Below, piece after piece: positions 1,707 through 24,520 of a stretch of 31,482 nucleotides of DNA. Each line of letters begins with the position of its first letter. The stretch's first letter is position 1. The notes beneath the pieces were generated by a model, which was not told the origin of the DNA, did not search any database, and was given only the letters and a program-made list of their open reading frames with translations. Made by a program: the position numbers and the translations under genes. Origin of the DNA: a virus; the IMG/VR virus record IMGVR_UViG_3300041809_000148, positions 1-31,482 of that record; one strand, given 5' to 3'.

Positions 1707-1716
1707 GGATGCAGAC

Positions 1717-2445: not shown

Positions 2446-2473
2446 ATGTATCTTATAGTTCGATGTATGCTTA

Positions 2474-3293: not shown

Positions 3294-3300
3294 CCACACA

Positions 3301-4392: not shown

Positions 4393-4428
4393 TCAAAAGC
4401 CGCCTGCTTTAGCTGGCGGTAGTTTACT
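4300..4428 (+). ncRNA. Putative omega RNA / right-end RNA of TnpB
   Basis: In known TnpB systems the guide scaffold spans the 3' end of tnpB and ends at the element's right end, with the guide being the adjacent flank. Here the 3' terminal hairpin is GCCGCC (4399-4404) with GGCGGT (4415-4420), loop containing CTTTAGC, then TAGTTTAC. The 5' limit is a guess from family sizes. The flank used as guide would begin near 4428. Confidence 0.45.
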
Positions 4429-4639: not shown

Positions 4640-4669
4640 AAATCCACAGTACACTGATGTTGGGCGAAA

Positions 4670-5122: not shown

Positions 5123-5123
5123 C

Positions 5124-6349: not shown

Positions 6350-6369
6350 TAGGCGATTCCTAACAGTGT

Positions 6370-6774: not shown

Positions 6775-6784
6775 GGGCGTGTGT

Positions 6785-9055: not shown

Positions 9056-9150
9056 GTGGACGAAAATACGATTTCATAGTATCGTAGGGGCGTAAGACGG
9101 CGCTGGCATAGCCCGACCCCCTAAAAGGAATAGGGAAGGAGAAAAATCCC

Positions 9151-9690
9151 GTGTCCTCCTGCAATACAGCGACGACATACACTTCGACTTTGAATTACCG
9201 CCAGGACACTGGTGGGACGGACATCGTATATCAAGGCAAGGGGATCTGTGCGATTCACAGCCAGATGCCAAGCCAGATGACGTTGACTACCAATGCGGGT
9301 AGCGCTGCCGGTACCTATGTCCTGTATTTTCCTTCAACCGCTGGGCTTTATACTGGCGTTTGGGCCAATGCTGCTGGTATCCCAGCCAACACGCATGTCC
9401 ACACAATCCAATCAACCTTTGTCCAGCTTGACACAACGCTAGCCACGACCATCACGACTGGCACGCCGATCATATTTACCCCCGGCCCTATTGGTGTTCC
9501 AACGATCTGGGGGTCAACCCCCGCCAACACCTATGCCATACCAGCCCCAAACAGCGACGGGACTTACGGTCCGCAACACGCTACCGATCCCTTTACCTAT
9601 ACTGTGCAGATGGCCGCTGCTGATTTGGGGTTCGGACAAAGTTTTAAGTTTGCTTACAATGGGCAGATTATCTACGGCGAGGTAGTGTAG
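9151..9690 (+). CDS. Beta-rich hypothetical protein (possible head/fibre accessory)
   Basis: 179 residues from GTG 9151; AAGGAG lies 10 nt upstream. Rich in Thr, Gly, Ala, Asn and Pro, with alternating strands (MTLTTNAGSAAGTYVLYF, TIQSTFVQLDTTLATTITTG). The TTGTPIIFTPGPIG segment looks like a repeat linker of phage surface proteins. No catalytic motif. No signal peptide. It may be a capsid decoration or adsorption accessory; the fold cannot be named from sequence alone. Confidence 0.6.
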   Translation: MSSCNTATTYTSTLNYRQDTGGTDIVYQGKGICAIHSQMPSQMTLTTNAGSAAGTYVLYFPSTAGLYTGVWANAAGIPANTHVHTIQSTFVQLDTTLATTITTGTPIIFTPGPIGVPTIWGSTPANTYAIPAPNSDGTYGPQHATDPFTYTVQMAAADLGFGQSFKFAYNGQIIYGEVV

Positions 9691-9714
9691 ACAGATACGC
9701 GACTAGGGAGCACC

Positions 9715-9978
9715 ATGGACAACCCATCGTTCGACATCGCTCCGGTAACTCGGGCACAGGTAGACAATCTACTCGCTCAACTCACAGCCAATGGCTCAAC
9801 CGTGAAACCGGGCAGCACGCCTGATTCCTGGGACATCAAGGGGCATAAATTCTTCATCGAGGTCGAAGCCGACGCTCGGTATGATGAGTCCCTTCAGATC
9901 CTCGCAGTCGAAGTGGTTCATGGGCCAGCGGGCAGGGTCGAAGCAGAACTCAGGAAGCAACTAGGTTTGCCGTCGTAA
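9715..9978 (+). CDS. Hypothetical protein (87 aa)
   Basis: Small soluble protein with a GGGAG ribosome binding site before ATG 9715. A helix (RAQVDNLLAQLTANG) is followed by strands (DSWDIKGHKFFIEVEADAR and SLQILAVEVVHG) and a terminal helix (VEAELRKQLGL). No known family is recognised. It lies 21 nt before the lipoprotein gene in the same direction. Confidence 0.58.
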   Translation: MDNPSFDIAPVTRAQVDNLLAQLTANGSTVKPGSTPDSWDIKGHKFFIEVEADARYDESLQILAVEVVHGPAGRVEAELRKQLGLPS

Positions 9979-9999
9979 GAAAGTTAAAGGAGATTCCCG

Positions 10000-10539
10000 A
10001 TGAAATTCAAACCATTCCTGGCCGTGTTTGCCGCGGCCGCCATGCTCACCCAGACCGGCTGTACCGGTTCCGACATTCTGCTCACCTTGGAAGCGAGCGT
10101 GGCGGCGTCCGAGATCCTTGTCGCCAGCCTCGCCACGGCGGGCAAGATCCCAGCCGCTGACGCTACGCCCATCGAGGCGGCGATTGCCGATGTCCCGGCT
10201 GCTTACACCCAGACGAGTACGGAACTCGCCTCTTCGGATGCGCCCGCAGTCAAGACGCTGAAGATCACCGCCTACTTCGCCAACGCGCTCCAGAAGTTGA
10301 ATGCGCTCCCTCCGGAGGCGCAGGTGTACGCTATCCCCGTGACACAAGCCATCAACGCCTTCCTGAACGCCATCAACCCGCCGCCAGCGGCTACGGGTGC
10401 GTTTAAGGCGAATGTGCGTACTACGGCGACGGCGTTCCCAGCCACCGGCTGGGCTCACCAGATAGCGCGTCATCACCTCAGCGACGTCAAGACCAGGGCG
10501 CTGAATCTTCAAATCGCCATCGACAACCTCAAGAAGTAG
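10000..10539 (+). CDS. Predicted lipoprotein, Ala-rich
   Basis: 179 residues; strong ribosome binding site AAAGGAG before ATG 10000. N-terminal signal MKFKPFLAVFAAAAMLTQTG then Cys 21, a lipobox-like site (the -3 residue is Gln, not ideal). The mature part is a long Ala/Thr-rich helical chain, probably facing the periplasm. Phage lipoproteins may be outer-membrane spanins or superinfection-exclusion proteins; length and the lack of a short Pro-rich body argue against a classical o-spanin. The following gene also has a signal peptide. Confidence 0.65.
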   Translation: MKFKPFLAVFAAAAMLTQTGCTGSDILLTLEASVAASEILVASLATAGKIPAADATPIEAAIADVPAAYTQTSTELASSDAPAVKTLKITAYFANALQKLNALPPEAQVYAIPVTQAINAFLNAINPPPAATGAFKANVRTTATAFPATGWAHQIARHHLSDVKTRALNLQIAIDNLKK

Positions 10540-10542
10540 CCC

Positions 10543-10998
10543 ATGCGCGCGCTGCTCCTGCTGATGATCGTATCGGGATCGGCCCTCGCTCAAGATAACT
10601 TTGCGGCGGCTGGAGTGAGCTACAACCATACCAGCGCCGCTTCATTGGCTGGTACAGCGGTTTACGCGCACGCTATTGCCGGAAGTTCCTGGTTCTTTTC
10701 CAGCCTGGACGTGCTGTCCGACTCCACTAAGCCGGGAAATGTGTCCACGAACTTCGCCCCTGGCGTGGCGCAGAAGCTATTCACGGTTCACTGGCTGGGC
10801 CTCTATACGGTCACTGGGGCCGGGGTGAGTTGGGCCGGGTCGAACACCGGCTGGACCTGGAGCGGCGGCGAGATGCCCATCATCCATTTGCCGCGCGGGT
10901 TTGTTATCGCACTTCCGGTGCGGTTCGTCAAAAGCAGCGTGAACAACAACTCCAACTATCAAGTGATCGCCACATTCCTGATTGGCAAAGGATGGTAA
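10543..10998 (+). CDS. Exported beta-barrel-like protein
   Basis: 151 residues with a Sec signal peptide MRALLLLMIVSGSALAQ cleaved near residue 17. The mature part has alternating hydrophobic and Gly/Ser residues (SSWFFSSLDVLSDS, VHWLGLYTVTGAGVSWAG, FVIALPVRFVKSS) and ends in a hydrophobic strand with aromatic residue (VIATFLIGKGW). Such a pattern resembles small outer-membrane barrels with a C-terminal aromatic residue. No named family. An outer-membrane protein in a phage could block receptors or aid release; both are inference. Confidence 0.6.
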   Translation: MRALLLLMIVSGSALAQDNFAAAGVSYNHTSAASLAGTAVYAHAIAGSSWFFSSLDVLSDSTKPGNVSTNFAPGVAQKLFTVHWLGLYTVTGAGVSWAGSNTGWTWSGGEMPIIHLPRGFVIALPVRFVKSSVNNNSNYQVIATFLIGKGW

Positions 10999-11005
10999 GT
11001 GGGCT

Positions 11006-11161
11006 ATGCTGATTCTAATCATCATTCTGATTCTGCTGTTCGGCTCGGGCGGAGGTTGGTACGGCTATAACCGCTTCGGCGCAGGGGGCGGGTTCGGTAT
11101 CAGTCTCGGTACCATTCTGCTAATCCTGCTCATAGCCTACCTGTTGGGCGGATTCCGCTAA
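11006..11161 (+). CDS. DUF3309-like tiny membrane protein (51 aa)
   Basis: Starts at ATG 11006, seven nt after the previous stop. Two hydrophobic helices (MLILIIILILLFG and ISLGTILLILLIAYLLGGFR) flank a Gly/Tyr/Trp-rich centre (GSGGGWYGYNRFGAGGG). This layout matches the small DUF3309 family as I know it, whose function is unknown. Its place before a peptidase gene and a holin-like gene suggests membrane action during lysis, but no evidence in the sequence proves it. Confidence 0.65.
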   Translation: MLILIIILILLFGSGGGWYGYNRFGAGGGFGISLGTILLILLIAYLLGGFR

Positions 11162-11171
11162 GGGGCCTACC

Positions 11172-13022
11172 ATGCCAGAATTTACATGGAAGCTCGGTCG
11201 GAACCCGAGTCCGCCCGATGATCGCAATCTGAAGCTCACCAAATACCTAACCATAGGGAAACTGCCGCCCACGCCGCAGAGCGTCCAGTACAGCCCCGCC
11301 GTGATGAAGCAGGGCGGCTACCGGATGCTGCTGAACGACCGATATGGTTGCCACGATGCCACAACTGAGGTGCTGACAGAGAAAGGCTGGCAGCCCTGGC
11401 CGGAATATGACGGCTCCCCGTTGGGGACGATGAACCAAACTACAGGCCTCCTAGAGTTCCAGCAGCCGTCTGCTCTTCAGCGGTGGGACTACGACGGCCC
11501 AATGTACTTTGCCGACCATAGGAGTCTGGACTTTGGCCTAACACCCAATCACCGCATGTTTCACCGGCCCTATGTAATCCCGTACCAAGACGGGCAGTAC
11601 GTTCCTGGGACTTCCGGTTACGGCCACTATCAGTTCTCCCCGATCTCGGAGTTGGGCACGCGGGTTGCTTTACCAGCATCGACTACCGGATTCCTGGGGG
11701 CGGAGTTGCGATCCCTGCGGATTGGAGGCAGGGACTGGGATGGTGACGATTTTCTGGCCATCCTGGCACTGGTCCTTTCCGATGGATACGTCAGTAACGC
11801 CGAGCACCACCGAGATACGATAAGTTTCTGTTGCTTTCGGGAAGATCGGCGCGAGATGGTGGCGGCGCTTGCATGTCGGCTTGGCATCAGCGAGTTCCCC
11901 AAGCGCAGGGGCGTATGGCAGTTCACGGATGGCGCTCTCGCAGAGTGGATGAAGGTGAACTGCTACACGAACCCGACCCTGAAGAGTCCATTCAAGCGGG
12001 TTCCCGACATTGTCAAGGTGGCGTCCGTTTCGCAAGTACAAGGCTTCTTGAAGTTCTACGGAGATCAGCACGTTTCAGGGGAGGGCTCCCGGAGCTTCAG
12101 TTCCACCAGTAGGCGCATGATTGATGACCTACAAGAACTTCTTCTGCGAATTGGCAAACGCGGGGGCATCTATTCTCGCCCAATGCGCGACGGGATAATC
12201 AAAGGCAAGATAGTCACCGGGGCAACGGACCACGACGATCACACATTGACGGAATGGAGAATGCAGGGCCTAGTTACCCTTCAAAGGCTATCAAGCAAGC
12301 CAACCGTTCAGATTGACCACTATCGCGGGGAGGTGTTCTGCGCCACGGTCCCTAACTCAACCCTGGTGACGCGGCGCAATGGACAGGTTCTTATCTCAGG
12401 AAACTGCTGTGTACCCGCGCAGATGTGCCACACTGTTATGCAGCACGCCGCCAATGCGGGACATCCTATGCCGGTGCCGAGCGATGCCGAAGTGATTTCG
12501 CTGTACTCGGCCATCGGCGGCTATGTTCCCGGCGATCCATCAACCGACAACGGATGCGATATGTTGACCGCGTTGAACTACTGGCGCAACACGGGCATCA
12601 CCATCGGCGGCGTTGTGCATAAGATTGGTGCATTCGCGCAGATCAACTTAGCCGATCCCGACGAAATCAACGCGGCCCTTTGGATCTTCGGTTCGACCTT
12701 CGATGGCGTAAACCTTCCTGCCGCCATGCAGAATTCTAACTTCTGGGGTAATATCCCATCCGACCTGAGCGGGGATTGGGAACCCGGTAGTTGGGGCGGG
12801 CACTGCGTCGGTCAGGCAGACGCCACACTGGACCCAAACCTAGACCTCTACCAGACAGTTACGTGGGGCGGATTGATGGCAACCGACGCCACATTCATGA
12901 AGGCCTATTGCGACGAGGCTTATGTGGTCATCTCGCAAGACTGGCTCGCCGACAACGGGCAATGCCCGGCTGGGTTCGACATCGCCGCATTGACGGACGA
13001 TCTGGCTGCGGTGTCCGCATAA
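11172..13022 (+). CDS. Papain-like cysteine peptidase precursor containing an intein
   Basis: 616-residue precursor. Residues 60-411 form an intein (separate entry), so splicing would join 1-59 to 412-616, giving a 264-residue peptidase-like protein. The splice site lies between Gly 59 (LLNDRYG) and Cys 412. The joined motif, LLNDRYGCCVPAQ, is the catalytic-Cys region of a family of papain-like phage and bacterial proteins in which I recall the pattern N-D-x-Y-G-D-C. Here Cys 413 aligns with the nucleophile, and Cys 412 (in place of Asp) serves as the splicing residue. The likely catalytic His is 544 (PGSWGGHCVG); TVTWGG (562-567) follows. Without splicing the catalytic site would be broken. 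The function may be lysis or head maturation; no other head protease was found between portal and coat. Confidence 0.82.
   Translation: MPEFTWKLGRNPSPPDDRNLKLTKYLTIGKLPPTPQSVQYSPAVMKQGGYRMLLNDRYGCHDATTEVLTEKGWQPWPEYDGSPLGTMNQTTGLLEFQQPSALQRWDYDGPMYFADHRSLDFGLTPNHRMFHRPYVIPYQDGQYVPGTSGYGHYQFSPISELGTRVALPASTTGFLGAELRSLRIGGRDWDGDDFLAILALVLSDGYVSNAEHHRDTISFCCFREDRREMVAALACRLGISEFPKRRGVWQFTDGALAEWMKVNCYTNPTLKSPFKRVPDIVKVASVSQVQGFLKFYGDQHVSGEGSRSFSSTSRRMIDDLQELLLRIGKRGGIYSRPMRDGIIKGKIVTGATDHDDHTLTEWRMQGLVTLQRLSSKPTVQIDHYRGEVFCATVPNSTLVTRRNGQVLISGNCCVPAQMCHTVMQHAANAGHPMPVPSDAEVISLYSAIGGYVPGDPSTDNGCDMLTALNYWRNTGITIGGVVHKIGAFAQINLADPDEINAALWIFGSTFDGVNLPAAMQNSNFWGNIPSDLSGDWEPGSWGGHCVGQADATLDPNLDLYQTVTWGGLMATDATFMKAYCDEAYVVISQDWLADNGQCPAGFDIAALTDDLAAVSA
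11349..12404 (+). mobile_element. Intein with LAGLIDADG homing endonuclease (352 aa)
   Basis: In-frame protein intron. Block A begins at Cys 60 (CHDATTEVLTEKGW). Block B holds the Thr-x-x-His motif at LTPNHRMF (123-130). The C-terminal block runs RGEVFCATVPNSTLV and RNGQVLISGN, ending at Asn 411 followed by Cys. The penultimate residue is Gly rather than the common His, seen in some active inteins. Two LAGLIDADG motifs are present: FLAILALVLSDGYVS (194-208) and QGFLKFYGDQHVS (290-302), with Asp 204 and Asp 298 as likely metal ligands. The endonuclease domain therefore looks complete, consistent with a mobile element. Confidence 0.9.
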
Positions 13023-13031
13023 AGGAAAGTC

Positions 13032-13400
13032 ATGCTCTCAACCGAACTTGGAAGTCAGGCGGGCGTCAGCGTCATCCTGGTCTACCTGCTCCAATGGCTC
13101 AAAGGCTCACCGTGGTTTCCCTGGCTCTCAGCGAGAACGGACACCATTAACCGGGTGCTGGCGATTGCCGTTGCCTTCTTCACCTCGGTTGGCTTTCAGG
13201 TCTCAATGACCGGTACCTGGACATCGGGTGGCACGCTGGTCATCCAGATCCCGGCCGCCACCGCCGTCCTCTCCGTAATCCTGCACACCGCCTCACAGAG
13301 CGGGTTCCAGGAACTCTTCTACAAACTGGCGGTCAAGCCGCCACGCGAGCCCCTGCTCAAACTCAGCAAAGACGATTCAGTCTGCGTAACGAAAGGGTGA
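13032..13400 (+). CDS. Holin-like membrane protein
   Basis: 122 residues with about three hydrophobic segments: VSVILVYLLQWLKG (about 12-25), VLAIAVAFFTSVGFQVSM (about 42-59) and IPAATAVLSVILHTA (about 73-87), then a basic cytoplasmic tail. Ribosome binding site AAAGGAAAG precedes ATG 13032. The size and topology fit a class I or III holin, a pore-former that releases the lytic enzyme. Neighbours (peptidase before, small membrane protein after) agree with a lysis cassette. No named holin family is recognised. Confidence 0.58.
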   Translation: MLSTELGSQAGVSVILVYLLQWLKGSPWFPWLSARTDTINRVLAIAVAFFTSVGFQVSMTGTWTSGGTLVIQIPAATAVLSVILHTASQSGFQELFYKLAVKPPREPLLKLSKDDSVCVTKG

Positions 13401-13405
13401 GTTCA

Positions 13406-13567
13406 ATGACCGTTTCAATTCTCTTCCTGGTGATCGCCGTGGTACTGTTCGGTATCGGCGCATGGTCGCGCTGGTGGAACAGCCCACAGCCGTACTATCC
13501 GTCATTCGTCTGCGGCGGCTTGTTCTTCTGGGCACTATCCCAATTGTGGCCCATGATCTCCAAGTAG
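13406..13567 (+). CDS. Small membrane protein (53 aa)
   Basis: Starts at ATG 13406, five nt after the holin-like stop. The product MTVSILFLVIAVVLFGIGAW is one clear transmembrane helix, then WSRWWNSPQPYYP and a second hydrophobic segment (FVCGGLFFWALSQLW). Two short helices with Trp-rich interface suggest a membrane protein acting beside the holin-like product, such as an antiholin or pinholin. No family is known to me. A strong hairpin follows downstream. Confidence 0.58.
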   Translation: MTVSILFLVIAVVLFGIGAWSRWWNSPQPYYPSFVCGGLFFWALSQLWPMISK

Positions 13568-13594
13568 CGGCAGGCCCATAAATTAAGCGCAGGG

Positions 13595-13618
13595 GACCGT
13601 CGCCTAAGGGCGACGGTC
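13595..13618 (+). terminator. Perfect 10-bp hairpin in an intergenic gap
   Basis: GACCGTCGCC (13595-13604) pairs perfectly with GGCGACGGTC (13609-13618) around TAAG. There is no T-run after it, so termination may need Rho, or the hairpin may protect or process the RNA. The left arm is identical to 3216-3225 in the sigma gene's 3' hairpin. Confidence 0.5.
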
Positions 13619-13634
13619 TCCTTGAGAAAATCGT

Positions 13635-13916
13635 ATGATGACAATTCTAAACTTGGTTCACCAGATCATCGCCCTACTGCGAAATGTGCTAACGAACCAA
13701 GCCAATTTGGCCTCACAGGTCAAAGTAGGGCAGTCGGGGCTTTCGGCTCAGATTGCTGCCGTGCGATCCCTCGTCCAGCAGCAAGGCGAGGCTCAAGTTC
13801 TTACGCTGGCTCAGATCACGGACAGTCTCGCAGTCATCGAGAAGGCCGTTTTCTACATACCAGGACCGCCAGTGAAGTTGCAAATCACTCTCGGGAAACC
13901 GCAACCACAGAAATAG
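13635..13916 (+). CDS. Small helical protein with possible coiled coil (93 aa)
   Basis: Start ATG 13635 (a second ATG follows at once). Residues 5-75 are helical with repeated hydrophobic spacing (NLVHQIIALLRNVLTNQANL, then LSAQIAAVRSLVQQQGEAQV), suggesting a coiled coil. The tail is a beta-like FYIPGPPVKLQITLGKPQ. No family. Transcribed with the Ig-like gene 18 nt downstream. It could be an assembly or tail-chaperone-like protein, but evidence is weak. Confidence 0.55.
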   Translation: MMTILNLVHQIIALLRNVLTNQANLASQVKVGQSGLSAQIAAVRSLVQQQGEAQVLTLAQITDSLAVIEKAVFYIPGPPVKLQITLGKPQPQK

Positions 13917-13934
13917 AATCCTATAGGAGTTCAC

Positions 13935-14279
13935 ATGGCTAATTTCCAACTTCAAGATGCACAGAAGGTCTCGTATGCGGTGGCTGTCACCGACGTAGAC
14001 AACAACCCGACAACCCTCCAGCCCGGCGATGTGGTGACTGCCATTTCGTCCATGCCCGCCTCTTTGGCCGTCGTGCCCGACGCGACTCCTGTAGCTGGCA
14101 GCGTGGCCTCCGGCTTCCTGGTGGCTAGCTCGACGCTCGCACTCAGCGTTACGTTCACGGTGACGATCACTCCGGCTGCCACTGGCGCAGCGGCCATCGT
14201 TGCCACCGACCTGATTGATGTGGTCGCTGGTGCCGATACCGGTGTGACCATTACGCTCGGCACGCCCGTCAGCCAGTAA
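13935..14279 (+). CDS. Bacterial Ig-like-domain small protein
   Basis: 114 residues: MANFQLQDAQKVSYAVAVTD, then a single Ig-like beta-sandwich with alternating strands (DVVTAISSMPASLAVVP, LSVTFTVTITPAATGAAAIV) and a closing GVTITLGTPVSQ. Many phages carry short proteins of this look, which bind virions or glycans. No signal peptide. A strong intrinsic terminator follows 19 nt after the stop, so this ends the transcription unit. Good fit to the Ig-like class, though the exact family is not assigned. Confidence 0.65.
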   Translation: MANFQLQDAQKVSYAVAVTDVDNNPTTLQPGDVVTAISSMPASLAVVPDATPVAGSVASGFLVASSTLALSVTFTVTITPAATGAAAIVATDLIDVVAGADTGVTITLGTPVSQ

Positions 14280-14297
14280 CTCTTGCAAGAGTGTAAG

Positions 14298-14324
14298 CCG
14301 GGGGCTTCGGCCCCCGGTATTGTT
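14298..14324 (+). terminator. Intrinsic terminator with TTCG tetraloop
   Basis: CCGGGGGC (14298-14305) pairs perfectly with GCCCCCGG (14310-14317) around TTCG, followed by TATTGTTT. A 12-base palindrome CTCTTGCAAGAG lies just before at 14280-14291. It separates the accessory block from the genes leading to the portal. Confidence 0.85.
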
Positions 14325-14341
14325 TCGTAGAAAGGTCAACC

Positions 14342-14926
14342 ATGCCCGTCCAGCCGTCTATCCATATCCCTTTGACGCTCGTACTTCGGGAGGAAACCGC
14401 GAAGCAATTCCAGGACTCCCTGAAAGATGTCCCCTTCACCGATTGGCTGGCTACCAGAGCACGGCTTTGGTTCGAGAATTATGCTAACGGCGGCGTCATG
14501 CTGTCGCCCGATCAGGTCAAGAAGATCGAGGAAACTGTCGAAAAGCCAGTCAGCAACGGCAGCGATGTTGTGAATGCCGTTGGGGCAAGCCGCAATATCC
14601 AGGACGGCTCCCACACGTTTCTCTTGACGTTGGACCCAACTTGGGTGCAGCCGCTTAAAGATCGCGCTGCCGAGATGGGCCGCACGCCAGAGGAGCTTAT
14701 CGACGATATGTTCTCCATCGGCATGGAGAACAACTGGGCCTATTCGCTAGACCCGGCGTATCAGCCTCCGGTGTATTTCCCGCATCCTGAGATTCTGAAG
14801 GGGCTGACGGGGAAAGATCGCCCAACCGGCGCGGAGGTTGAAAAGGGTATCCAGCAACTCGTTACGGAAGCGCGGAAGGCCGTGGATCGGGCAAAGGCGC
14901 TGGAGGCTCCGGTAGAGGTTGCCTAA
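14342..14926 (+). CDS. Hypothetical protein, possible tandem ribbon-helix-helix
   Basis: 194 residues; AAAGGTC precedes ATG 14342. Two similar strand-helix-helix stretches can be seen: HIPLTLVLREETAKQFQDSL (about 8-27) then WLATRARLWFENY, and TFLLTLDPTWVQPLKDRAAE (about 92-111) then TPEELIDDMFSIGMENNW. Each resembles a ribbon-helix-helix unit, so the protein might be a single-chain DNA-binding dimer. The C-terminal 40 residues are a charged helix. Stop and the next start overlap as TAATG. Confidence 0.5.
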   Translation: MPVQPSIHIPLTLVLREETAKQFQDSLKDVPFTDWLATRARLWFENYANGGVMLSPDQVKKIEETVEKPVSNGSDVVNAVGASRNIQDGSHTFLLTLDPTWVQPLKDRAAEMGRTPEELIDDMFSIGMENNWAYSLDPAYQPPVYFPHPEILKGLTGKDRPTGAEVEKGIQQLVTEARKAVDRAKALEAPVEVA

Positions 14927-15441
14927 TGCCAATTTATGAATTCGCCTGCGCTCACGAAGGATGCTACTTGCAGGGGCGCGTCTGGGAAGCCTACTTCACG
15001 AAGATTGGTGCTACGATGCCCAACTGTGTGGAGTGTGGCAATCCGACGCAGCTTATGCCTTCAATCTCCCACGCCATCTGGTTGGGCACTCTCGACAAGT
15101 ACAACCAGCCGGGATGCGTAACCCAGAACCCCACAGAGGACGGCGGGCACGTCGCCTATCGGGTCAGAAGTAGCCGTATGGTGGATGGCTCCCCTGAGCC
15201 CGTTCGCATCCGCACAGTTCAAGAGCAGAGGGAGTATTGCAAGGCCGAAGGACTGACAATGCCGAGCGACATGCCGCCGCACGCGGAGTATTCGGCTAAG
15301 GGGGCAAGCTGCCAAGGAATGCCGGGGTGCTGGGCCAGTGTCAACGAGGATTTTATTGCAGAGCAGAAAGCAAAGCCCCTACCGCCAGAGGCACCGGCTC
15401 CCATCACTGTGGTTGAGCGGTCTGTGGAGGTTGCGGACTAG
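14926..15441 (+). CDS. FmdB-like zinc-ribbon protein
   Basis: 171 residues. The N-terminus MPIYEFACAHEGCYLQGRVW and then MPNCVECGNPTQLMPS match the FmdB-type zinc ribbon, with Cys at about 8, 13, 34 and 37. The first cysteine pair is spaced by four residues rather than two. FmdB-like ribbons occur in small bacterial and phage proteins of mostly unknown role. A second Cys pair (ASCQGMPGCW, about 127-135) and a Pro-rich tail follow. Coupled by TAATG to the upstream gene. Possibly an assembly or regulatory factor for the portal gene that follows. Confidence 0.68.
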   Translation: MPIYEFACAHEGCYLQGRVWEAYFTKIGATMPNCVECGNPTQLMPSISHAIWLGTLDKYNQPGCVTQNPTEDGGHVAYRVRSSRMVDGSPEPVRIRTVQEQREYCKAEGLTMPSDMPPHAEYSAKGASCQGMPGCWASVNEDFIAEQKAKPLPPEAPAPITVVERSVEVAD

Positions 15442-15495
15442 GGCCTCGATTCAAAGTAACGAGAGCGTTTGTCTGTATCCAGACACGACGAAACT

Positions 15496-17385
15496 ATGGA
15501 TTTTTTGCCAGTTGGCCCACATTACGGCTCTGACTCAGATGGTGAGAACGCGCATTATGCCACCGGGAATCAGGGCGAGGACAGGCAGAAGTACCTGTCA
15601 GGGTTAGAGCATTGGCGCGAATCCGCAAAAGAGGAAGCCTACAAAACAGCAGACCTGAACCCAGAAAAGGAAGCTGCTGCTAGGTACATGCGGGCGCTTG
15701 GCGGGGAGTATTGGGATCGGCGTAGAGCGAAGTACAAGTCAAAGGTTTTCGACAATCGCCTCAACAATTCTCGCATTACCGACCTTTCCCTCCTTACCCA
15801 AACCCGTCCTACGATAGACATCTCTACCAAAATTGACGCCTACAAAGGGGAGGCAGACATCGTTTCTAAGGTCATCCGCTCAGAGTGGCTGACAAGAGAC
15901 ATGGATGCTGAATTCATCCGCGTCAACGACATCACCAAATTGAACGGGACAGGGTTCTGGAAGATTGGCGCGGCGTCTCCAGGGATGATGCAGGCTATTT
16001 CCTGTGGGCCGGATTCTGTATTCCCGATCCAGCCTGGATTCCATTTACAGAATTCCACAGCCATGCTCTACAAGACGTGGAAAGCCCTGTCATATTTCAG
16101 GAACAAGTTTCCTTACGGCTGCGCTGGAATTGAAAAAGAACTGTCCGACGTAGAACAGGGCGCGGGCGGAGCGGCGCAGTTCACGCGGCCTAAAGAATAT
16201 CCAGAGTACACTTGGGAGCGCTTATCGCCAGCAATGCGGCGCTCTGTTGGGATTCGCATAGGATCGGGGGATATTGGCACCAGCGTTTTCAAATCATTGG
16301 AAATGCAAGAGTACTACGTCGATGACCCGCAGGTGAACGAATCCAAGAACAAGGTCTTGATGCGGCATCCCTATCTGCCGCTTACCCTTTACAACTGGTG
16401 GTACTGGGTCAACCCCGGAGAGCGTCTGTATCCACGTAAACGGCTCCTGGTGTTTGCGGGCCGCAGGCTGATGTACGATGGGCCTGCCCCGTTCTGGCAT
16501 GGGCTGTTCCCCTTCGCTACGCTGCGCCTCAATCCAGTCCCGTGGTCCTTCTGGGGCCTGTCGAAGTATCGAGACCTGCTACCTCTTAACGAGGGGATGA
16601 ATGAGATCATCGCTGGCATCCTGGACATGGTGCGGCGGGCTCTCAACCCCACGGTTGTCACCAAAGCGGGCGCTGTGCCCCAAGCAACGTGGCGGGAGTT
16701 CTACCCCGACATGCCAGGGGCAAGACTCTACATGCTGCCGAACAGCAATCCTCAGACGGACGTGAGGTACATAGCTCCCCCAGAGATCCCCGCGTGGGTG
16801 ATGCAGGCCCACCAATACCTGTCGATGGAGTTTGACCGCCTTGCCGGGATTGTCGATCCAGGGGCACTTGGGAAGAAAAAGCAAGTTCCAGGCGGCGACA
16901 CCATCGAACAGATGCGGGAAATGTTGAACACCCCAACTCAATTGGAATCCCGTTACGGGGAATTGTTCCTGCGTGATGTTGGCGTACAGGCTATGTCCAA
17001 CGTTTTCCAATACTTCGAGTTGCCCATGCGGTTGCGACTCTTAGGGAAAGACGGGATCAGCCTGGAGGACTTCAACTACGAAGGGCCGAATCTCATTCCT
17101 GACCACGTAACCCGCGAAGATCACTGGAAGAACTTCTCGATGATGATTACGCCGGGATCGCTGTTAGGATCTAGCCGTGACCGTGAAAAGCAGACAGCCA
17201 TCAATATGGCCGCAAAGGGCCTACTGCCCCTGCAATATCTGTGGAGCGTTTTGGAACTCAACCCGAAACAGCTTATGGAAATGCTCAAGCAGGAACATGA
17301 GATGGGTATTGGGGCCAAAGCGCCTAAGCCGTCAGGGCAGTCTGCTCCCAAGATGACGGGTGGCCAGAAGACGGGGAACGTCTGA
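15496..17385 (+). CDS. Portal protein
   Basis: 629 residues from ATG 15496; an in-frame TTG at 15469 would add nine residues and cannot be ruled out. Forms the dodecameric ring through which DNA enters the head and to which the tail joins. The family-like core is RLNPVPWSFWGLSKYRDLLP then LNEGMNEIIAGILDMVRRA (roughly residues 340-385 of the longer form), typical of portals that turn from the wing into the stem. A long N-terminal wing has many aromatic residues. The C-terminal tail is rich in Lys, Gly and Pro. Lies upstream of the scaffold-like and coat genes, the normal order. Confidence 0.82.
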   Translation: MDFLPVGPHYGSDSDGENAHYATGNQGEDRQKYLSGLEHWRESAKEEAYKTADLNPEKEAAARYMRALGGEYWDRRRAKYKSKVFDNRLNNSRITDLSLLTQTRPTIDISTKIDAYKGEADIVSKVIRSEWLTRDMDAEFIRVNDITKLNGTGFWKIGAASPGMMQAISCGPDSVFPIQPGFHLQNSTAMLYKTWKALSYFRNKFPYGCAGIEKELSDVEQGAGGAAQFTRPKEYPEYTWERLSPAMRRSVGIRIGSGDIGTSVFKSLEMQEYYVDDPQVNESKNKVLMRHPYLPLTLYNWWYWVNPGERLYPRKRLLVFAGRRLMYDGPAPFWHGLFPFATLRLNPVPWSFWGLSKYRDLLPLNEGMNEIIAGILDMVRRALNPTVVTKAGAVPQATWREFYPDMPGARLYMLPNSNPQTDVRYIAPPEIPAWVMQAHQYLSMEFDRLAGIVDPGALGKKKQVPGGDTIEQMREMLNTPTQLESRYGELFLRDVGVQAMSNVFQYFELPMRLRLLGKDGISLEDFNYEGPNLIPDHVTREDHWKNFSMMITPGSLLGSSRDREKQTAINMAAKGLLPLQYLWSVLELNPKQLMEMLKQEHEMGIGAKAPKPSGQSAPKMTGGQKTGNV

Positions 17386-17390: not shown

Positions 17391-17467
17391 GCGCCCATGG
17401 CTCAATTGGATAAAGCAACTGACTCTTAATCAGTAGATTGAAGGTTCGACTCCTTCTGGGCGCACCA
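17391..17467 (+). tRNA. tRNA-Lys(CTT)
   Basis: Cloverleaf: acceptor GCGCCCA (17391-17397) pairs with TGGGCGC (17457-17463), then A and an encoded CCA. Anticodon stem ACTGA/TCAGT encloses CTCTTAA, giving anticodon CTT (17425-17427), which reads AAG. T arm GAAGG-TTCGACT-CCTTC is perfect. The D stem is short with one mismatch. It starts five nt after the portal stop. Confidence 0.92.
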
Positions 17468-19289: not shown

Positions 19290-19337
19290 AGTGCCATAGC
19301 CGCCGATTTGGACTAACGAAGGATTGTCTATGGCACT
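19290..19337 (+). promoter_or_regulatory. Hairpin sequestering the capsid gene start codon
   Basis: AGTGCCATAG (19290-19299) is perfectly complementary to CTATGGCACT (19328-19337), a 10-bp stem containing the ATG at 19330-19332. The 28-nt loop carries the AAGGA ribosome binding site. This would mask the start codon until the structure opens. Confidence 0.75.
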
Positions 19338-21116
19338 GCAATTAAGCGACCTCACTGCATTTACTGATCAGTATATTGTGGAGAGGACGACTGATGTGAT
19401 CTTCAAACAGTCGCCGCTCTTCACACGACTGCTCAATCGTCGGAGAATGCGCTTCCAAGGTGGAACGTACATTAAATAGTTGAGTGTACGATAAATCTGG
19501 CTAAATCGGTGAAACTCTTTGAAAACAAAGACAATACCGAGGAAAGACTGGGCGGTGAGAATCAATCAACTTACGGATACTGAGGCGGCTTACATAGCCG
19601 GGCTGCTCGATGGCGAAGGCACAATCGGGATGAAGAAGGCCTTCAACAAGAGCGGAGACCGCAAGCTTCGGTATCGCCCTTACGTCGTGGTGGCTACGAC
19701 CACTTCCTGCGTTTTGGCTAGTTGGTTGATGTCTGTGCTTGATGTCCAAGTTCATCCGGCCAATCGGAAGGCTGACAACCCAAAGCATAAGAAGGCTCTG
19801 CTTGTCAGGATGTCCGAGAGGCCAGGGGAAGAATTACTGAAACGGATTCTCCCTTATCTGGTGATAAAAAAGCATCAAGCGGAATTGTTCCTTCGATATC
19901 GGGAAATCCAGAAGGCATGTGGTCCTTCCCTCCGATGGTCAAGGAATAGAATGCTGGCGGTTAGAGTGCTTCGGGATTGGTACTGCAAAGAGTTCCACCG
20001 TCTCAACGCCAAAGGCCCAGAATCCGTAGAGGCTAATATGCCAGACGCTATCTCCGAAGCAGAGATAGTAAAGATAGAGTCCGACCTGCACGGTGACGTG
20101 CAGAGGGCAAGTGGTGACACTCGGCCCCGCCTACTGATGTAGCTGTAAGTCAGTAGGTCATAAAAGTAACAGGTTGTCAACGGCCCATCATCTACAGCGA
20201 ACTGAACGGTGACTGGTTCTCGAAGGGTGACAACTTCAACATCAGTTATGTGACCACGGACACGGCCTTCGCGGTCAACATGAAGACCAGCTACGTCAAT
20301 GTCACGCTATATGGAATAGATGACGTTTTGAACCGTGGCCCGCAGGCAGCGTTCTCCATCGTGGAGTCCAAGTTCGCGAACGCTTCGATGAAGATGGCGA
20401 AACTGATCGCCACTGGTCTGTACCAGGACGGTCAGAGTTCAGTATCGCCGCCTTTCACCGGAGCCCTGTCAGGCACCAAGTCGATGGACGGCTTGCTGGC
20501 CTGGGTTGACGACGGCAATTCCAGCGGCACGTATTTGACGGTTGGCGATCAGACGCAGAGCACCGCAGCCATCGGCGGCATTACCCGCATCGATCTGTTT
20601 GCAGCCAGCGCCTATTCCTTCACCACCGGCATTACGCCTGCTGCCGCAGTTGGCGGAGCGAACTCTTACGTGAATCGTGGGTACTCTGCGTACTCCCTGA
20701 TCGACGTGAACACGGCCTATGGTTTCGCGTGGTTCGGCAACGACTACGTGGACCTGATGCCAGGGACGCAGACGGCCTACAACAAGATCTGGAACACCCT
20801 TCAGCCTCAACAGCGCTACAACGACGGTCAGAGCGACGTTGGCAAAGTGGGCTTCCAGGCGTTCCGATTCAACGCCGCCGAAGTCGTCATCGACAAGTAC
20901 ATCCCCTCGGATGGCACGAACGGGCTGCTGCTTGGCCTCAACACCAACTACATCGAACTGTACATCAGCGAGAACAAGAAGTTCCAGTTTGGGTTCACCG
21001 GCTTCAAAGAAGCGCAGAACTCCATCGACATCGCCGGGCAGTTCTTGTTTTCCGGGAACCTCATGGTGCCTAATCCAAGAACCTGCTTCAAGATTGTCGG
21101 CCCAGTCCTCCTGTAA
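19330..21116 (+). CDS. Major capsid protein, interrupted by a group I intron
   Basis: The gene is split: exon 1 19330-19472 (143 nt) and exon 2 20177-21116 (940 nt), total 1083 nt, 360 residues plus stop. Exon 1 ends in GGTY and the first two bases of ATT; exon 2 supplies the last base, giving I-Q-R-P-I-I-Y-S-E-L. Unspliced, translation would stop at TAG 19477-19479. The protein MALQLSDLTAFTDQYIVERT, with FQGGTYI at about 42-48 and further on TAYGFAWFGNDYVDLMPG, is typical of HK97-fold coats of tailed phages. It forms the icosahedral shell. Its start codon is buried in a hairpin. Confidence 0.87.
19473..20176 (+). ncRNA. Group I self-splicing intron (704 nt)
   Basis: P1: exon CGTACAT (19466-19472) pairs with GTGTACG (19484-19490), with a U-G wobble at the splice site. 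P10: exon 2 TCAAC (20177-20181) pairs with GTTGA (19479-19483). P3: TCTGGC (19496-19501) with GCCAGA (20040-20045). P4: TCGGT (19506-19510) with ACCGA (19536-19540). P5: CTTTG-AAAA-CAAAG (19517-19530). P7: GGCT (20031-20034) with AGTC (20078-20081), weak. P8: CTATCTC (20048-20054) with GAGATAG (20062-20068). P9 hairpins are CTGCAC/GTGCAG (20086-20103) and CCTACTGA/TCAGTAGG (20130-20157). The last intron base is G, as required. Confidence 0.92.
19555..20142 (+). CDS. LAGLIDADG homing endonuclease in the intron
   Basis: 195 residues from GTG 19555, preferred because GAGGAAAG lies about ten nt upstream; a TTG at 19519 would start inside the P5 helix. One LAGLIDADG motif is present: TEAAYIAGLLDGEGTIGM (about residues 9-26), so it should act as a homodimer. 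Later helical parts carry KKHQAELFLRYREIQKA. It copies the intron into intronless capsid genes. Its coding sequence includes the P3, P7, P8 and first P9 strands of the intron core (20031-20103), so that DNA is under both protein and RNA constraint. Stop is TAG 20140-20142. Confidence 0.88.
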   Translation: MRINQLTDTEAAYIAGLLDGEGTIGMKKAFNKSGDRKLRYRPYVVVATTTSCVLASWLMSVLDVQVHPANRKADNPKHKKALLVRMSERPGEELLKRILPYLVIKKHQAELFLRYREIQKACGPSLRWSRNRMLAVRVLRDWYCKEFHRLNAKGPESVEANMPDAISEAEIVKIESDLHGDVQRASGDTRPRLLM

Positions 21117-21143
21117 CGAGAAAAGGCGAAAGGAGACACAGAT

Positions 21144-21794
21144 ATGTATAACCCCGTTTCTTACGGTGTGGACTCGCTGACGTTGGTTAGTGGCGTGACT
21201 TTGGGTTTCGGCCCCGGTCAAACCGCCCCGCCTCGTCTGCTTGTCATCGTCCCCACGGCGGCAACAGGAATCGTCCTGCCCGCCATCGCTTCTACTCCCC
21301 CGACCCCTCCCGGCACGCCGGGAACAACTCCAGGCGTGGGTGATGGCTTCTGCATCACCGTCCGCAACGGCGCGGCCTATGCGGTCACGCTGGCAGCGGC
21401 AACTGGCAATACGCTGGCGGATTCGCTCATCCTGAACTATACGGGCGCTATGGAGACCCTTCAGGCGTGTGCGAAAGATACCAAGTGGTATCGCATCGTG
21501 AATCCGCTCGGTGCGGTTGGTTATCGAACCGTTGGCGGGACCGTCACGGTCGCCACTACGGATCGGTATATCAACGTCGCCACGGCCACTACTACGGTCG
21601 TTCTGCAAGCTGCATCGGTCTACCCCGCTGGGGTCGAATTCGTGAGCATCATGAACTACTCTGGCAGCAGCATCAGCATTGCCGCTTCGGGGAACACCAT
21701 CAACACTACGGCGTCCCCATACATCGTCAGCACGAAGGTAAGCACCGGAATTTGCACGGATGGGGTCGCCTTCTACCTCACGCATACAGCGTAA
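21144..21794 (+). CDS. Beta-rich surface protein, paralogue A1
   Basis: 216 residues from ATG 21144 (binding site AAAGGAG). Begins MYNPVSYGVDSLTLVSGVTL, then PRLLVIVPTAAT, a Pro/Thr/Gly-rich linker (TPPTPPGTPGTTPG), and repeated short strands with Asn and Gly (IRN/TVRNGAAYAVTL, ISIAASGNTINTT). Such alternation suits a beta-sandwich or beta-helix capsid decoration or fibre protein. The next gene is a diverged tandem copy. No enzymatic motif. Confidence 0.68.
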   Translation: MYNPVSYGVDSLTLVSGVTLGFGPGQTAPPRLLVIVPTAATGIVLPAIASTPPTPPGTPGTTPGVGDGFCITVRNGAAYAVTLAAATGNTLADSLILNYTGAMETLQACAKDTKWYRIVNPLGAVGYRTVGGTVTVATTDRYINVATATTTVVLQAASVYPAGVEFVSIMNYSGSSISIAASGNTINTTASPYIVSTKVSTGICTDGVAFYLTHTA

Positions 21795-21809
21795 ACAGGA
21801 GAAGCAACT

Positions 21810-22454
21810 ATGATTAACCCTGTCTCTTACGGCGTGGATTCCTTAACGCTCGTGAGTGGCGTGACGCTGGGCTTTGGGCCTGGGATGACGGCTCCACCCC
21901 GTCTACTGGTCATTGTGCCTACGGCGGCTACCGCCATCACTCTGCCTACTATCGGGCCTACTCCCCCGACCCCTCCCGGTACGCCGGGAACGTCGCCGGG
22001 AGTTGGCGACGGGTATCAAATCACCATTCGCAACGGAGCTGCTTACGCAGTTACCGTGTCAGCGGCCAGCGGCAACACCTTAGCCGACTCGCTTGTCATG
22101 AACTACACGGGTTGCCAGGAAACCCTCCAAGCCTGCGAGGCTAACAGCAAGTGGTATAGGATTGTTCCGGTCCTTGGCGCTGCTATGTACCGCAAGGCTG
22201 GCGCTCCGCTGACCATCGCCACCTCAGATCGGTATGTCAACATCGCCACAGCGGGCACCATCACGCTGCTTGCTCCATCGTCCTATCCGCCTGGGGTTGA
22301 GTTCGTCACGTTGCTGGACGGTGCAGGCGTCACCTACACCGTTGCTCCAACTTCCGGCAACATCAACGGAACCGCTGCGCTTACGGTAGCGTCTGCAATT
22401 GCGGTCGGGGTTTTAACTGACGGCTCAAACTTCTTTTTAACGCACAGTGCGTAG
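21810..22454 (+). CDS. Beta-rich surface protein, paralogue A2
   Basis: 214 residues, a tandem duplicate of the upstream gene. The N-termini share NPVSYGVDSLTLVSG and then VTLGFGPG and PPRLLVIVPTAAT at near-identical positions, but many codons differ synonymously, so the duplication is old and the protein is under selection. It includes the same Pro/Gly linker and the strand YTVAPTSGNINGTAAL. The ribosome site AGGAGAAG precedes ATG 21810. Probably forms a hetero-oligomer or alternative copy of the A1 protein on the virion surface. Confidence 0.68.
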   Translation: MINPVSYGVDSLTLVSGVTLGFGPGMTAPPRLLVIVPTAATAITLPTIGPTPPTPPGTPGTSPGVGDGYQITIRNGAAYAVTVSAASGNTLADSLVMNYTGCQETLQACEANSKWYRIVPVLGAAMYRKAGAPLTIATSDRYVNIATAGTITLLAPSSYPPGVEFVTLLDGAGVTYTVAPTSGNINGTAALTVASAIAVGVLTDGSNFFLTHSA

Positions 22455-22469
22455 AAAGCAAAGGACTTT

Positions 22470-22949
22470 ATGGCACTACAGCAAGCAAAAGTTTGGAACA
22501 TCAACCAACAGGCGATCTATTTTGCCACGGCGGGGGTAGCGGACCTCCCTACCACCGCCGACTTCTTTAATGTCGGGGACTGGGTGATTAACATCAACCC
22601 AACGATGGCGACGGGAGAACCCGCAGCCTGGGTTGTCACTACGGTTGCTAGTGGGACGACTCCCTCATTTAGTCCCTTCTCTCGCTCGTTGCAAGCGAAA
22701 ACGGCGGGATCGGCCTATACGGTAAGCACCAATACCGACAGGGTTGTTTTAGCTGGGGCTGTCCCGATTACCCTTCCGGCTGCGACTGCTTGGCCCAAAG
22801 GGCAGGAGATTGCTTTCAGTTGTCTCACGTCTTCGACTACCATTACTCCAGCTTCAGGGAACATCGGAGGGAATGCCTCCGTGACTTTGACAACCGGGCA
22901 ATACGGACGATGGGTTGGAGACGGAACAAATTACTGGCAGATTGGGTAA
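22470..22949 (+). CDS. Beta-repeat surface protein, paralogue B1
   Basis: 159 residues. N-terminal half (VWNINQQAIYFATAGVADLP, then FFNVGDWVININPTM) is shared with the next gene. C-terminal half has one repeat ending in TTITPASGNIGGNASVTL and VGDGTNYWQIG. These repeats (G-N-I-x-G ... N-x-W) appear on phage fibre and decoration proteins. Starts at ATG 22470 with AAAGGAC before it. Coat-adjacent position suggests virion surface. Confidence 0.65.
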   Translation: MALQQAKVWNINQQAIYFATAGVADLPTTADFFNVGDWVININPTMATGEPAAWVVTTVASGTTPSFSPFSRSLQAKTAGSAYTVSTNTDRVVLAGAVPITLPAATAWPKGQEIAFSCLTSSTTITPASGNIGGNASVTLTTGQYGRWVGDGTNYWQIG

Positions 22950-22958
22950 GGGGGATCT

Positions 22959-24047
22959 ATGGCGTGGCTTGAATCAAAAGCATGGGACGTAAACCAGCAC
23001 GCAGTTTACTTTGTGACCGCTGGATCGACGGACCTTCCAACTACCTGCGATTTCCTCAACGTCGGAGATTGGGTTGTCAACGTCAACCCCAGCATGGCGG
23101 TCGGCGATCCGGCTGTTTGGGTTGTGACTTCAATATCAGGCGTCACGCCGACGTTTACAGCCTTTGCTAATGTTGGCTCAAACCCAGTCTCGACGGTTAC
23201 GGCGAACACCACCGTTGCCACCTCAGCTAAGACGCTTTTAGCAAATGCTGTGTCGGCTGGGTTTAAGATCACCCTTCCGGCTATTGCTACCGCGAACAAA
23301 GGGTTCGCTCCCAGAATAATCAAGAGTGATACCTCCACAAACCCTGTCACCGTGACTCCTTCTGGAGCGAACACCATCAACGGGCAGACGGGCGACTACG
23401 TGATGAATACGCCTTATCAAGCCATGGAGATTGCTAGCGATGGGTCTTCCAACTGGGATAGGGTATTAGGATCTGTCCCAAGCAACCAGCGATCTGCTGG
23501 ATCGGCTACGACAGTGACGCCAGCAGACAGCTACATATTAGTTAGCGCTGGTGCGACAGTCACGTTTCAGGCCGCAACGGCGTACCCAGTGGGCCAAGAA
23601 GTCACGATACGAAACATCAGCACCGCGAATGTCACCGTCACTCCAGCGCAGGGGAACATTGACGGATACGCGAGCCTCACGCTTAACCCATATGCTTCTG
23701 TGGGCGTGGTCACGGATGCTTCTAATTGGTGGACCGTCACCCAGTTCGTCAACCACGGGATACGGTTGGCGACTCTCACCACCACGATGTCACCCAGTTC
23801 AACAATCACCACAGCAGACCAGATTGTGATTTTCACCAGCGCCGGTATGGCTAATATCCCCAGTGCTTCTACGTGGCCTTCTGGATACGTCCTGACCCTC
23901 AAGGCCGTGGGAGCGGCTACGGTCAGCACTCCTGGAGGCAACATCTATACCGCCGCCGCGCAAACCACCGTTACTACCTTGGCTGCGTATGCGGCTCTTC
24001 AACTTACGGTCGATCCGGCCCAGACCAACTGGTATTCGGTCGGCTAA
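22959..24047 (+). CDS. Beta-repeat surface protein, paralogue B2, three repeats
   Basis: 362 residues. N-terminal 70 residues match the preceding gene (MAWLESKAWDVNQHAVYF, then FLNVGDWVVNVNPSM). Three modules follow at about 82-170, 183-261 and 283-362, ending with NTINGQTGDYV, GNIDGYASLTL and GNIYTAAAQT respectively, then D-x-x-N-W-x-V/D-type ends (DGSSNWDRV, DASNWWTV, AQTNWYSVG). The gene looks like the product of internal expansion of the B1 repeat. Probably a fibre or decoration protein; fold is beta. Confidence 0.66.
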   Translation: MAWLESKAWDVNQHAVYFVTAGSTDLPTTCDFLNVGDWVVNVNPSMAVGDPAVWVVTSISGVTPTFTAFANVGSNPVSTVTANTTVATSAKTLLANAVSAGFKITLPAIATANKGFAPRIIKSDTSTNPVTVTPSGANTINGQTGDYVMNTPYQAMEIASDGSSNWDRVLGSVPSNQRSAGSATTVTPADSYILVSAGATVTFQAATAYPVGQEVTIRNISTANVTVTPAQGNIDGYASLTLNPYASVGVVTDASNWWTVTQFVNHGIRLATLTTTMSPSSTITTADQIVIFTSAGMANIPSASTWPSGYVLTLKAVGAATVSTPGGNIYTAAAQTTVTTLAAYAALQLTVDPAQTNWYSVG

Positions 24048-24059
24048 TAGTAGGCCCCT

Positions 24060-24428
24060 ATGCCTCAAAGCACATTGAACTACTGGGCTGCAACACTGAC
24101 GGTGCCGACCACCGCGACGAGCTTGTGGACCCTCGCCACTACCTATTTTGCGGCTAATCGCACAACTGATTCCATCGACCAGTCGGCCACGGTAATGTTC
24201 CTGACCGGGGAAGCGGGCAATGGGGCTACGGTCATCTACGTTGGGGACAAGACTCTTAACGTCACAGCTACGCCACCTGTCGGTGTTGGCTTAGAACTTA
24301 CTGCGGGTGCATCGGCGTGGAGTGGGCAGAGCATGACTGGCGGACTAACTACTGATTTGAACTACTTTTATGTTCAAGCGGCTACCACCGTTACGCCGTA
24401 TCTGTGCGTCCTTGTCATGAAAATGTGA
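24060..24428 (+). CDS. Small beta-rich virion-like protein (122 aa)
   Basis: Starts at ATG 24060, 12 nt after the B2 stop. Thr/Ala-rich strands throughout (STLNYWAATLTVPTTATSLW, NGATVIYVGDKTLNVTATPP, LNYFYVQAATTVTPYLCVLV). No motif or signal peptide. It belongs to the same beta-rich cluster as the upstream genes and is probably a surface or fibre component. No family is recognised. Confidence 0.6.
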   Translation: MPQSTLNYWAATLTVPTTATSLWTLATTYFAANRTTDSIDQSATVMFLTGEAGNGATVIYVGDKTLNVTATPPVGVGLELTAGASAWSGQSMTGGLTTDLNYFYVQAATTVTPYLCVLVMKM

Positions 24429-24454
24429 CGGGGCGCAGAAAGGAGGGACTTTCA

Positions 24455-24496
24455 ATGGCGCGTCACAAGAAGGGCCGGAAGAAGGTTCGGAAGTAG
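24455..24496 (+). CDS. Lys/Arg-rich micro-ORF (13 aa)
   Basis: Thirteen codons, MARHKKGRKKVRK, with a textbook binding site (AAAGGAGGG) about eight nt before ATG 24455. Related to the 16-residue frame at 17541: both start MAR and carry KKGRK, and both show AAGGGCCG at the DNA level. All five lysines are AAG. Followed by a terminator-like hairpin. As an independent second copy with a strong binding site, it supports translation of this peptide class. Too short for any database family I could name. Confidence 0.55.
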   Translation: MARHKKGRKKVRK

Positions 24497-24520
24497 GGCA
24501 AGGGCCGGTTTACTGGCTTG

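Follow-up and report, generated by a model that had tools for sequence, protein, structure and literature searches.

A major capsid gene interrupted by a probable mobile group I intron in an uncultured phage

How a phage could make its major capsid protein from a gene that is closed early by an in-frame stop codon is the question raised by the record IMGVR_UViG_3300041809_000148, a 31,482-base virus sequence that is called the window here. The capsid gene follows, in order, a portal-like open reading frame (ORF), a tRNA gene and unassigned ORFs. The tRNA gene (17391-17464) lies directly after the portal-like ORF, and two similar tandem ORFs are found 3′ of the capsid gene (21144-22454), with about 69% DNA identity when cross-matched to the related contig G007. 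The exons, the intron with its helices and the gene inside it are on the plus strand. The first part of the capsid gene (19330-19472, 47 codons plus 2 nt) is separated by 704 nt (19473-20176) from the second part (20177-21116), which matches PHROG 9953, a major head protein family, at 20250-21113 with an E value of 8.2e-12. The insertion starts with TAAATAG, placing a TAG at its nucleotides 5-7 in the frame of exon 1, as originally predicted; the unspliced capsid frame therefore terminates immediately. We propose with high confidence that a mobile group I intron interrupts the gene, that it would be spliced out and that its encoded enzyme would home into intronless alleles. The boundaries, core, ORF and alleles are taken from the sequence, and splicing and cleavage are deduced from the mechanism of the class.

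The original prediction had fixed both ends of the intron to the base, at 19472/20177, and scoring against an intronless relative confirms them. Removal of the 704 nt joins the exons into 360 codons and a stop, and the 3′ terminal base is G20176, both as had been claimed. When cut positions around the junction were scanned, the best protein score was tied between 19472/20177 and 19473/20178, of which only the former has U and G ends. The two exons are contiguous in intronless relatives. Initially, 14 loci containing relatives of exon 2 were retrieved. In the locus L002, whose capsid protein is 97% identical, exons 1 and 2 align with zero room for an insertion between them. The capsid protein runs contiguously across residue 48 in 75 of 79 capsid-relative loci, which are the best 79 of 90 confirmed and come in part from near-identical contigs. 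Two of the other four, L039 and L078, have insertions there, that of L078 being 4 nt off the window site with unsure ends; L080 and L094 lack the junction region because their matches start at residues 117 and 235, respectively.

The identity of the protein was addressed through its relatives. PHROG 9953 (major head protein) was matched by all 41 capsid relatives. An AlphaFold model was built for the intronless relative L017, not for the spliced window protein, and reached a pLDDT of 75 and a pTM of 0.74 with a 41-sequence alignment, which was used instead of an input of five capsid sequences that gave a pLDDT of 27.8. Foldseek aligned this model to phage capsids including Pa223, SU10, T5, and HK97, with low TM-scores of about 0.4-0.5. 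By its family match and the L017 model, the predicted protein of the window is an HK97-fold major capsid protein. Capsid exon 2 had no match in the phage collection, and the capsid alignment had none in genome_contigs, so that no host or provirus was found there.

The RNA fold of the intron largely agrees with the pairings that had been proposed. As claimed, P1 (19466-19490) pairs the exon end CGTACAT (19466-19472) with the guide GTGTACG (19484-19490) through seven pairs with a U-G at the cut, and P10 pairs TCAAC at the start of exon 2 (20177-20181) with GTTGA (19479-19483). At 165 of the 6510 T positions of the window, a flush P1 of at least seven pairs can form within 40 nt, and the joint rate of such a P1 plus a random downstream G with a flush P10 of at least five pairs is about 7e-5. 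Only 5 nt lie between P1 and P3; therefore, there is no P2. P3 is formed by 19496-19501 and 20040-20045, P4 by 19506-19511 and 19535-19540, and P5 by 19516-19521 and 19526-19531, the latter two together occupying 19506-19540. P6 (19541-19543 with 20023-20025) and P6a (19548-19553 with 20015-20020) span 19541-20025, and the ORF of a predicted endonuclease fills the P6a loop. Further 3′ are P8 (20047-20069; 20047-20054 with 20062-20069), P9 (20086-20103; 20086-20092 with 20097-20103) with a GUGA tetraloop, and a P9.2-like hairpin near the 3′ end (20130-20157; 20130-20137 with 20150-20157). The presence of P3, P4, P5, P8, and P9 thus stands, and the earlier description of P7 as weaker is amended: P7 (20029-20082) pairs 20029 and 20031-20034, within a 5′ strand at 20029-20034 that adjoins the 3′ strand of P3, with 20078-20082. 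It contains one G-U pair and, by our own reading of the sequence, an adjoining A-G mismatch.

A comparison with the related intron of L039 provides the first test of this fold. That intron is 734 nt long and lies at the identical position, in a gene whose exon 2 is 57% identical. Over P1 to P10, including P6a and P9.2, the two-sequence alignment has 67 pairs, of which 97.7% of cells are paired and 10 pairs are changed on both sides: two in P1, one each in P5, P6 (A-U to U-A), the outer pair of P7 (G-C to U-A), P9, and P9.2, and three in P8. P3 is unchanged. The unpaired cells belong to P10, with three of five pairs broken in L039, and to one gapped pair of P9.2. When partners were slid by one to three positions, 32-38% of cells were paired (at most 38.3%) with zero to two both-sided changes, and none of 500 shuffles matched the observed values. 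Since the structure was drawn from these same two introns, the pairing percentage is biased upward and the both-sided changes are the evidence; part of the compared region is also protein-coding.

Broader evidence comes from introns that are free of the ORF. Two core patterns conserved between the window and L039 were scanned over viral contigs and matched 3 and 26 stretches, giving the loci L119-L146. A short hairpin in place of the window's ORF was seen by eye in 14 of 17 loci examined, that is, at P6a. Thirteen ORF-less cores were aligned (alignment A5), and their 39 pairs are 92.7% paired, with both-sided changes in 20, compared to maxima of 42.5% and 7 in slid controls. The alignment is poor at P5 (56% paired) and P8 (78%). 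In these relatives, five of six P3 pairs and six of seven P9 pairs covary, the outer P7 pair is G-C in nine and A-U in four, and P4 never varies and therefore carries no covariation information. The Rfam alignment would instead place the P7 5′ strand at 19546-19550 with P6 deleted. This placement was rejected in view of the compensatory changes against L039 at 19543:20023 in P6 and 20029:20082 in P7, and it is also contradicted by the short P6a hairpin that ORF-less relatives have at the position of the window's ORF.

A covariance model (R1) was built from A5 alone, with the window left out. It matches the window at 19491-19652 with 52.8 bits and at 19948-20107 with 50.5 bits (E 7e-10 and 2e-9), as two half-matches because the ORF separates the halves, the far half of each being forced onto ORF sequence. 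The model also finds the introns of L039 (44.4 and 27.3 bits) and L110 (37.8), matches a single L078 intron out of five at 21.0 bits (E 0.009) and L026 weakly (16.0, E 0.12), and has no match to the L072 intron or in the eight intronless capsid loci L002, L003, L011, L012, L053, L057, L030, and L049. A search with a group I model, which had been suggested as a check, was made with Rfam RF00028. It matched 19463-20103 (E 6.1e-8), and the score of 38 bits does not reach the curated cut-off of 50 bits, which is a curation threshold and not a defining feature of group I; at curated cut-offs, Rfam reports only the tRNA in the window. The same model scores 40.5 bits in L010 (L026), 30.3 in L039, and 22.6 (E 0.046) for one L078 intron, all below 50, and has no match in L072. 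Over six records, four matched at E ≤0.01, none above the cut-off, and two with uninterrupted capsid genes were unmatched. The assignment to group I is based on the U-G pair of P1 at the 5′ splice site, the terminal G and a core of P3, P4, P6, P7, and P8 with covariation judged against slide and shuffle controls. Collectively, the intronless alleles, the covariation, the window-free covariance model and the capsid family and fold of the relatives support the reading that the major capsid gene is split by a putative group I intron with the ends proposed. The endonuclease ORF, the assignment of P6, P6a, and P7 and the comparison of alleles are additions to the original prediction.

The intron encodes a protein of 195 aa at 19555-20142, for which a GTG start was chosen by eye. 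The 3′ part of its ORF overlaps the 3′ strands of P6a, P6, and P3 as well as P7, P8, and P9, and its stop lies within P9.2; overlap of an ORF with intron core sequence is described in the excerpted text of a review (PMC3984707). A longer reading frame from 19519 matches PHROG 5046, labelled HNH endonuclease, with an E value of 2e-18. The window's ORF has one LAGLIDADG motif and matches I-MsoI in the PDB at E 1.9e-4 alone and at E 7.8e-6 through a two-sequence profile. Pfam scores are below cut-off, with 12.6 bits against 22.5 for LAGLIDADG_3 (window) and 17.4 against 23.1 for LAGLIDADG_1 (L039). The structures of I-MsoI and I-CreI (PDB 1m5x, 1g9y and others) share with the ORF a single motif, a comparable length and an alignment over residues 4-114; in contrast, its last 80 residues, whose coding overlaps the ribozyme core, are unaligned. 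The Asp of the motif, which we take to be the catalytic residue, is conserved relative to I-MsoI. From these matches, the ORF is predicted to be an I-MsoI/I-CreI-like LAGLIDADG endonuclease. The endonuclease of the L039 intron is 52% identical to it. Searched alone in viral_contigs, the window endonuclease had no match, and the two-sequence profile led back to the L039 contig alone; among named phages, matches were found in 22 records, with identities of at most 35.8% among the best 20 of the 22.

Further introns were found in the same capsid family. They lie after nt 143 of the gene in the window and L039, after 277 in L026 and L072, after 256 in L110, and after 50, 139 (unsure), 207, 234, and 275 in L078. 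Eight positions are thus occupied by 10 introns, and none lies past nt 277 of a gene that is roughly 1 kb long. In a splice-site scan of these 10 introns, including that of the window, nine have exactly one U/G combination among the one to three best-scoring cuts, compared to a background in which U/G-end cuts make up 2-12% of all stop-free combinations. The exception is the second L078 intron, with no U/G combination among its three best cuts and a U/G option 4 points lower, so that its ends are unsure. The P1 helices seen in L026, L072, and L078 introns 1, 2, and 5 were all short or unconvincing. The L078 locus itself (781-3600 of IMGVR_UViG_3300036761_003996) has five apparent introns within the first 275 coding bases of its capsid gene, and the gene is uninterrupted in its relatives L053, L054, and L057. 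By DNA likeness, intron 1 resembles 2, 3 resembles 4, and 4 resembles 5, and this pattern suggests local proliferation.

Is the intron mobile? The most informative comparison is with the contig G007 (L002), where the intron is absent. It has no mismatch to the window in any 250-base bin of 4501-16750 (12.25 kb) and one mismatch over bins 21251-24500, and differs at 69 of 1083 positions of the capsid gene. These dense mismatches define a divergent tract around the intron at 19440-21194, whose end is approximate, and 19 scattered differences upstream of it reach back to 16878. Fifteen of the 69 capsid mismatches lie within 40 nt of the insertion site (hypergeometric p 6.5e-5), a modest clustering in that at least this number is reached in 2.3% of the gene's 80-nt windows. 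The outgroup G006 shares the window/G007 differences both ways, so that gain of the intron cannot be told apart from loss. The tract and the missing intron are what homing with co-conversion of exons would leave, with the direction being either way. Ordinary recombination of capsid genes may also have produced the tract, because of the polarity split in G006 and the 19 scattered differences. In a tree of 48 capsid proteins, the six intron-bearing rows need six changes, at least five of them forced by supported branches, and intron presence takes no fewer changes than it does with shuffled labels. Taken together, the comparisons indicate an element that probably spreads from virus to virus by inserting copies of itself into capsid genes. 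All contigs are metagenome-derived, and assembly errors at a single locus are possible, above all in L078, L140, and G007.

Two side observations concern other parts of the window. An ORF at 11172-13022 of the window matches PHROG 19005 and has a LAGLIDADG_3 match; the segment 11340-12404 is absent from G006 and present in G007. This ORF is likely an intein with an empty-site relative. In addition, a TnpB-like gene (PF07282 and PF01385) at 3199-4425 is carried by a segment of 1,227 nt, and both G007 and G006 lack exactly this segment.

In the mechanism that we propose, the intron would fold in the late transcript and a guanosine bound at P7 would attack after U19472. Exon 1, held by P1, would then attack after G20176, and the exons would join into a continuous capsid message of 360 codons. 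The capsid protein is among the most abundantly made phage proteins, and splicing in its gene must therefore be efficient. The single-motif LAGLIDADG enzyme, acting as a dimer, would cut the uninterrupted capsid allele in a co-infecting relative, and repair from the intron-bearing copy would insert the intron and drag along flanking capsid exon sequence.

The rival that survives best is an intron that is spliced and immobile, its endonuclease being inactive or a maturase only, and the G007 difference being due to ordinary recombination or precise loss. The undecided direction of change with G006, the scattered differences back to 16878 and the intronless state of most relatives, including the nearest, L002 and L003, would all agree with it. 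However, the ORF is intact and keeps the LAGLIDADG aspartate of I-MsoI; L039, with a capsid gene 57% identical, has an intron at the same site with the related endonuclease; the bearers are scattered over the capsid tree; and the insertion site lies only about 33 nt inside the 5′ end of the dense tract. We consider immobility unlikely. Far less probable is that a free-standing endonuclease gene or a transposon broke the gene, leaving a pseudogene or two capsid proteins. The stop that closes exon 1 and a possible GTG start for exon 2 at 20250 could be read in this way, but the 288-aa ORF from 20250 would miss 72 N-terminal residues with many conserved positions, the core and splice sites covary, and the frame is restored when just the predicted 704 nt are excised. 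The joining of the capsid halves by an intein or by programmed frameshifting or read-through is the least credible explanation, almost to the point of dismissal, in spite of the intein-like insertion at 11172-13022, since the reading frame of exon 1 is closed at intron nt 5-7, all three frames have stops at 20100-20180, 704 is not divisible by 3 and no intein domain was found in the ORF of the insertion.

Related introns were also sorted by the gene that they accompany. Among L119-L146, L120 is the L039 contig; the other 27 loci were reduced to 19 by merging four near-identical sets with equal scores (L128/130/131/136/139/141, L142/145, L137/143, and L129/133), and L132 was dropped for having no model match, leaving 18 distinct loci. 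The associated gene is a capsid gene in 15 of these 18, from several PHROG families. Ten have a capsid gene of PHROG 1357 type, assigned by PHROG in L128, L119 (E 0.0019), and L134 and only by tblastn to L128/L119 in L121, L123, L127, L135, L142, L144, and L146, the L146 piece having no PHROG match. Other types are PHROG 267 in L140 and L137, PHROG 2522 in L126 and L138, and PHROG 4523 and others in L129, whose best match is PHROG 29592, of unknown function. The intron of L124 is beside a portal gene, and L122 and L125 appear capsid-like and tail-like, respectively, by eye only. That introns lie inside capsid genes was likewise read by eye from the flanking reading frames. Each locus covers no more than 15 kb around its match, several introns may be orthologous, and R1 has 111 matches in total, so the result is an association and not 15 independent events. 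The search patterns were derived from capsid introns and contain no exon sequence. Several group I model matches each were also observed in L142, L144, L146, L123, L135, L127, and L121, several of them with LAGLIDADG-like ORFs by eye.

The densest case is L140 (2319-10003 of IMGVR_UViG_3300032053_000045): over some 7.7 kb, fragments of a capsid protein are interspersed with 15 R1 matches, one of which is a training sequence of the model. In the relative L148 this protein is a single 306-aa frame; 11 of the fragments can be mapped to it with E ≤0.12, and the best chain includes 16, some of them with E >1. About 15 introns may thus interrupt one capsid gene, a density above that of the capsid-gene examples in the excerpted parts of PMC3706429 and PMC7886860. 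The related introns are associated with capsid genes of five PHROG types (9953, 1357, 267/10, 2522, and 4523, Mu-like head/protease) and one portal gene, and no other gene class was identified with them among the 18 distinct loci. A possible reading, which we hold only tentatively, is that the window's intron is part of a group I lineage of uncultured phages specialised in major capsid genes, whose homing would spread its own capsid alleles, with capsid replacement as a side effect or a benefit. In an open-licence library, the titles and opening lines of abstracts that were listed described no capsid-preferring intron lineage.

Several known systems resemble parts of this picture. In phage T4, the td intron lies in the thymidylate synthase gene, and its ORF, in the P6 region, encodes a GIY-YIG enzyme. 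Like the window's element, td/I-TevI combines a group I intron with an endonuclease gene, and its homing co-converts flanking exons, as outlined in the available extract of PMC2988022. A close counterpart by description is the mycobacteriophage LittleE, where the major capsid gene contains a probable group I intron (an 819 bp insertion) with a LAGLIDADG-like ORF, a U at the exon end, a G at the intron end and intronless relatives; unlike in the window, the LittleE ORF runs antisense to the capsid gene, and its authors call the intron type most likely group I (PMC3706429, in part). The same excerpt reports splicing of the LittleE capsid intron by RT-PCR and N-terminal sequencing and cites a capsid intron in Tuc2009. 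Also likened by description are crAss-like phages, gut phages of Bacteroidetes whose major capsid gene can contain group I introns; one capsid gene of the Zeta group is split into five fragments, and three of its four gaps hold intron domains (PMC7886860, in part). The intron endonuclease gp210 of PhiPA3 acts against a co-infecting relative, as proposed here, although it is an HNH enzyme in an RNA polymerase gene and the interference is experimental there and conjectured here (PMC11620839, in part). For Jug phages, the extracted text of PMC12363816 gives 2,513 predicted group I introns, with RNA reads supporting the splicing of 37 of 76 in three genomes.

Since capsid-gene introns are documented in LittleE and crAss-like phages, the type of the window's intron is already known; what is newly added is the pair of alleles, the evidence of covariation and the lineage's apparent association with capsid genes. 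Because the intron scores below the curated Rfam cut-off, standard annotation would show half a capsid gene, and capsid-based surveys could mis-score such phages. The window and G007 are nearly identical phages with the filled and the empty allele of the same intron site, which would make homing in uncultured phages testable. Should the capsid association hold up, mobile introns would be one of the forces behind the exchange of capsid genes.
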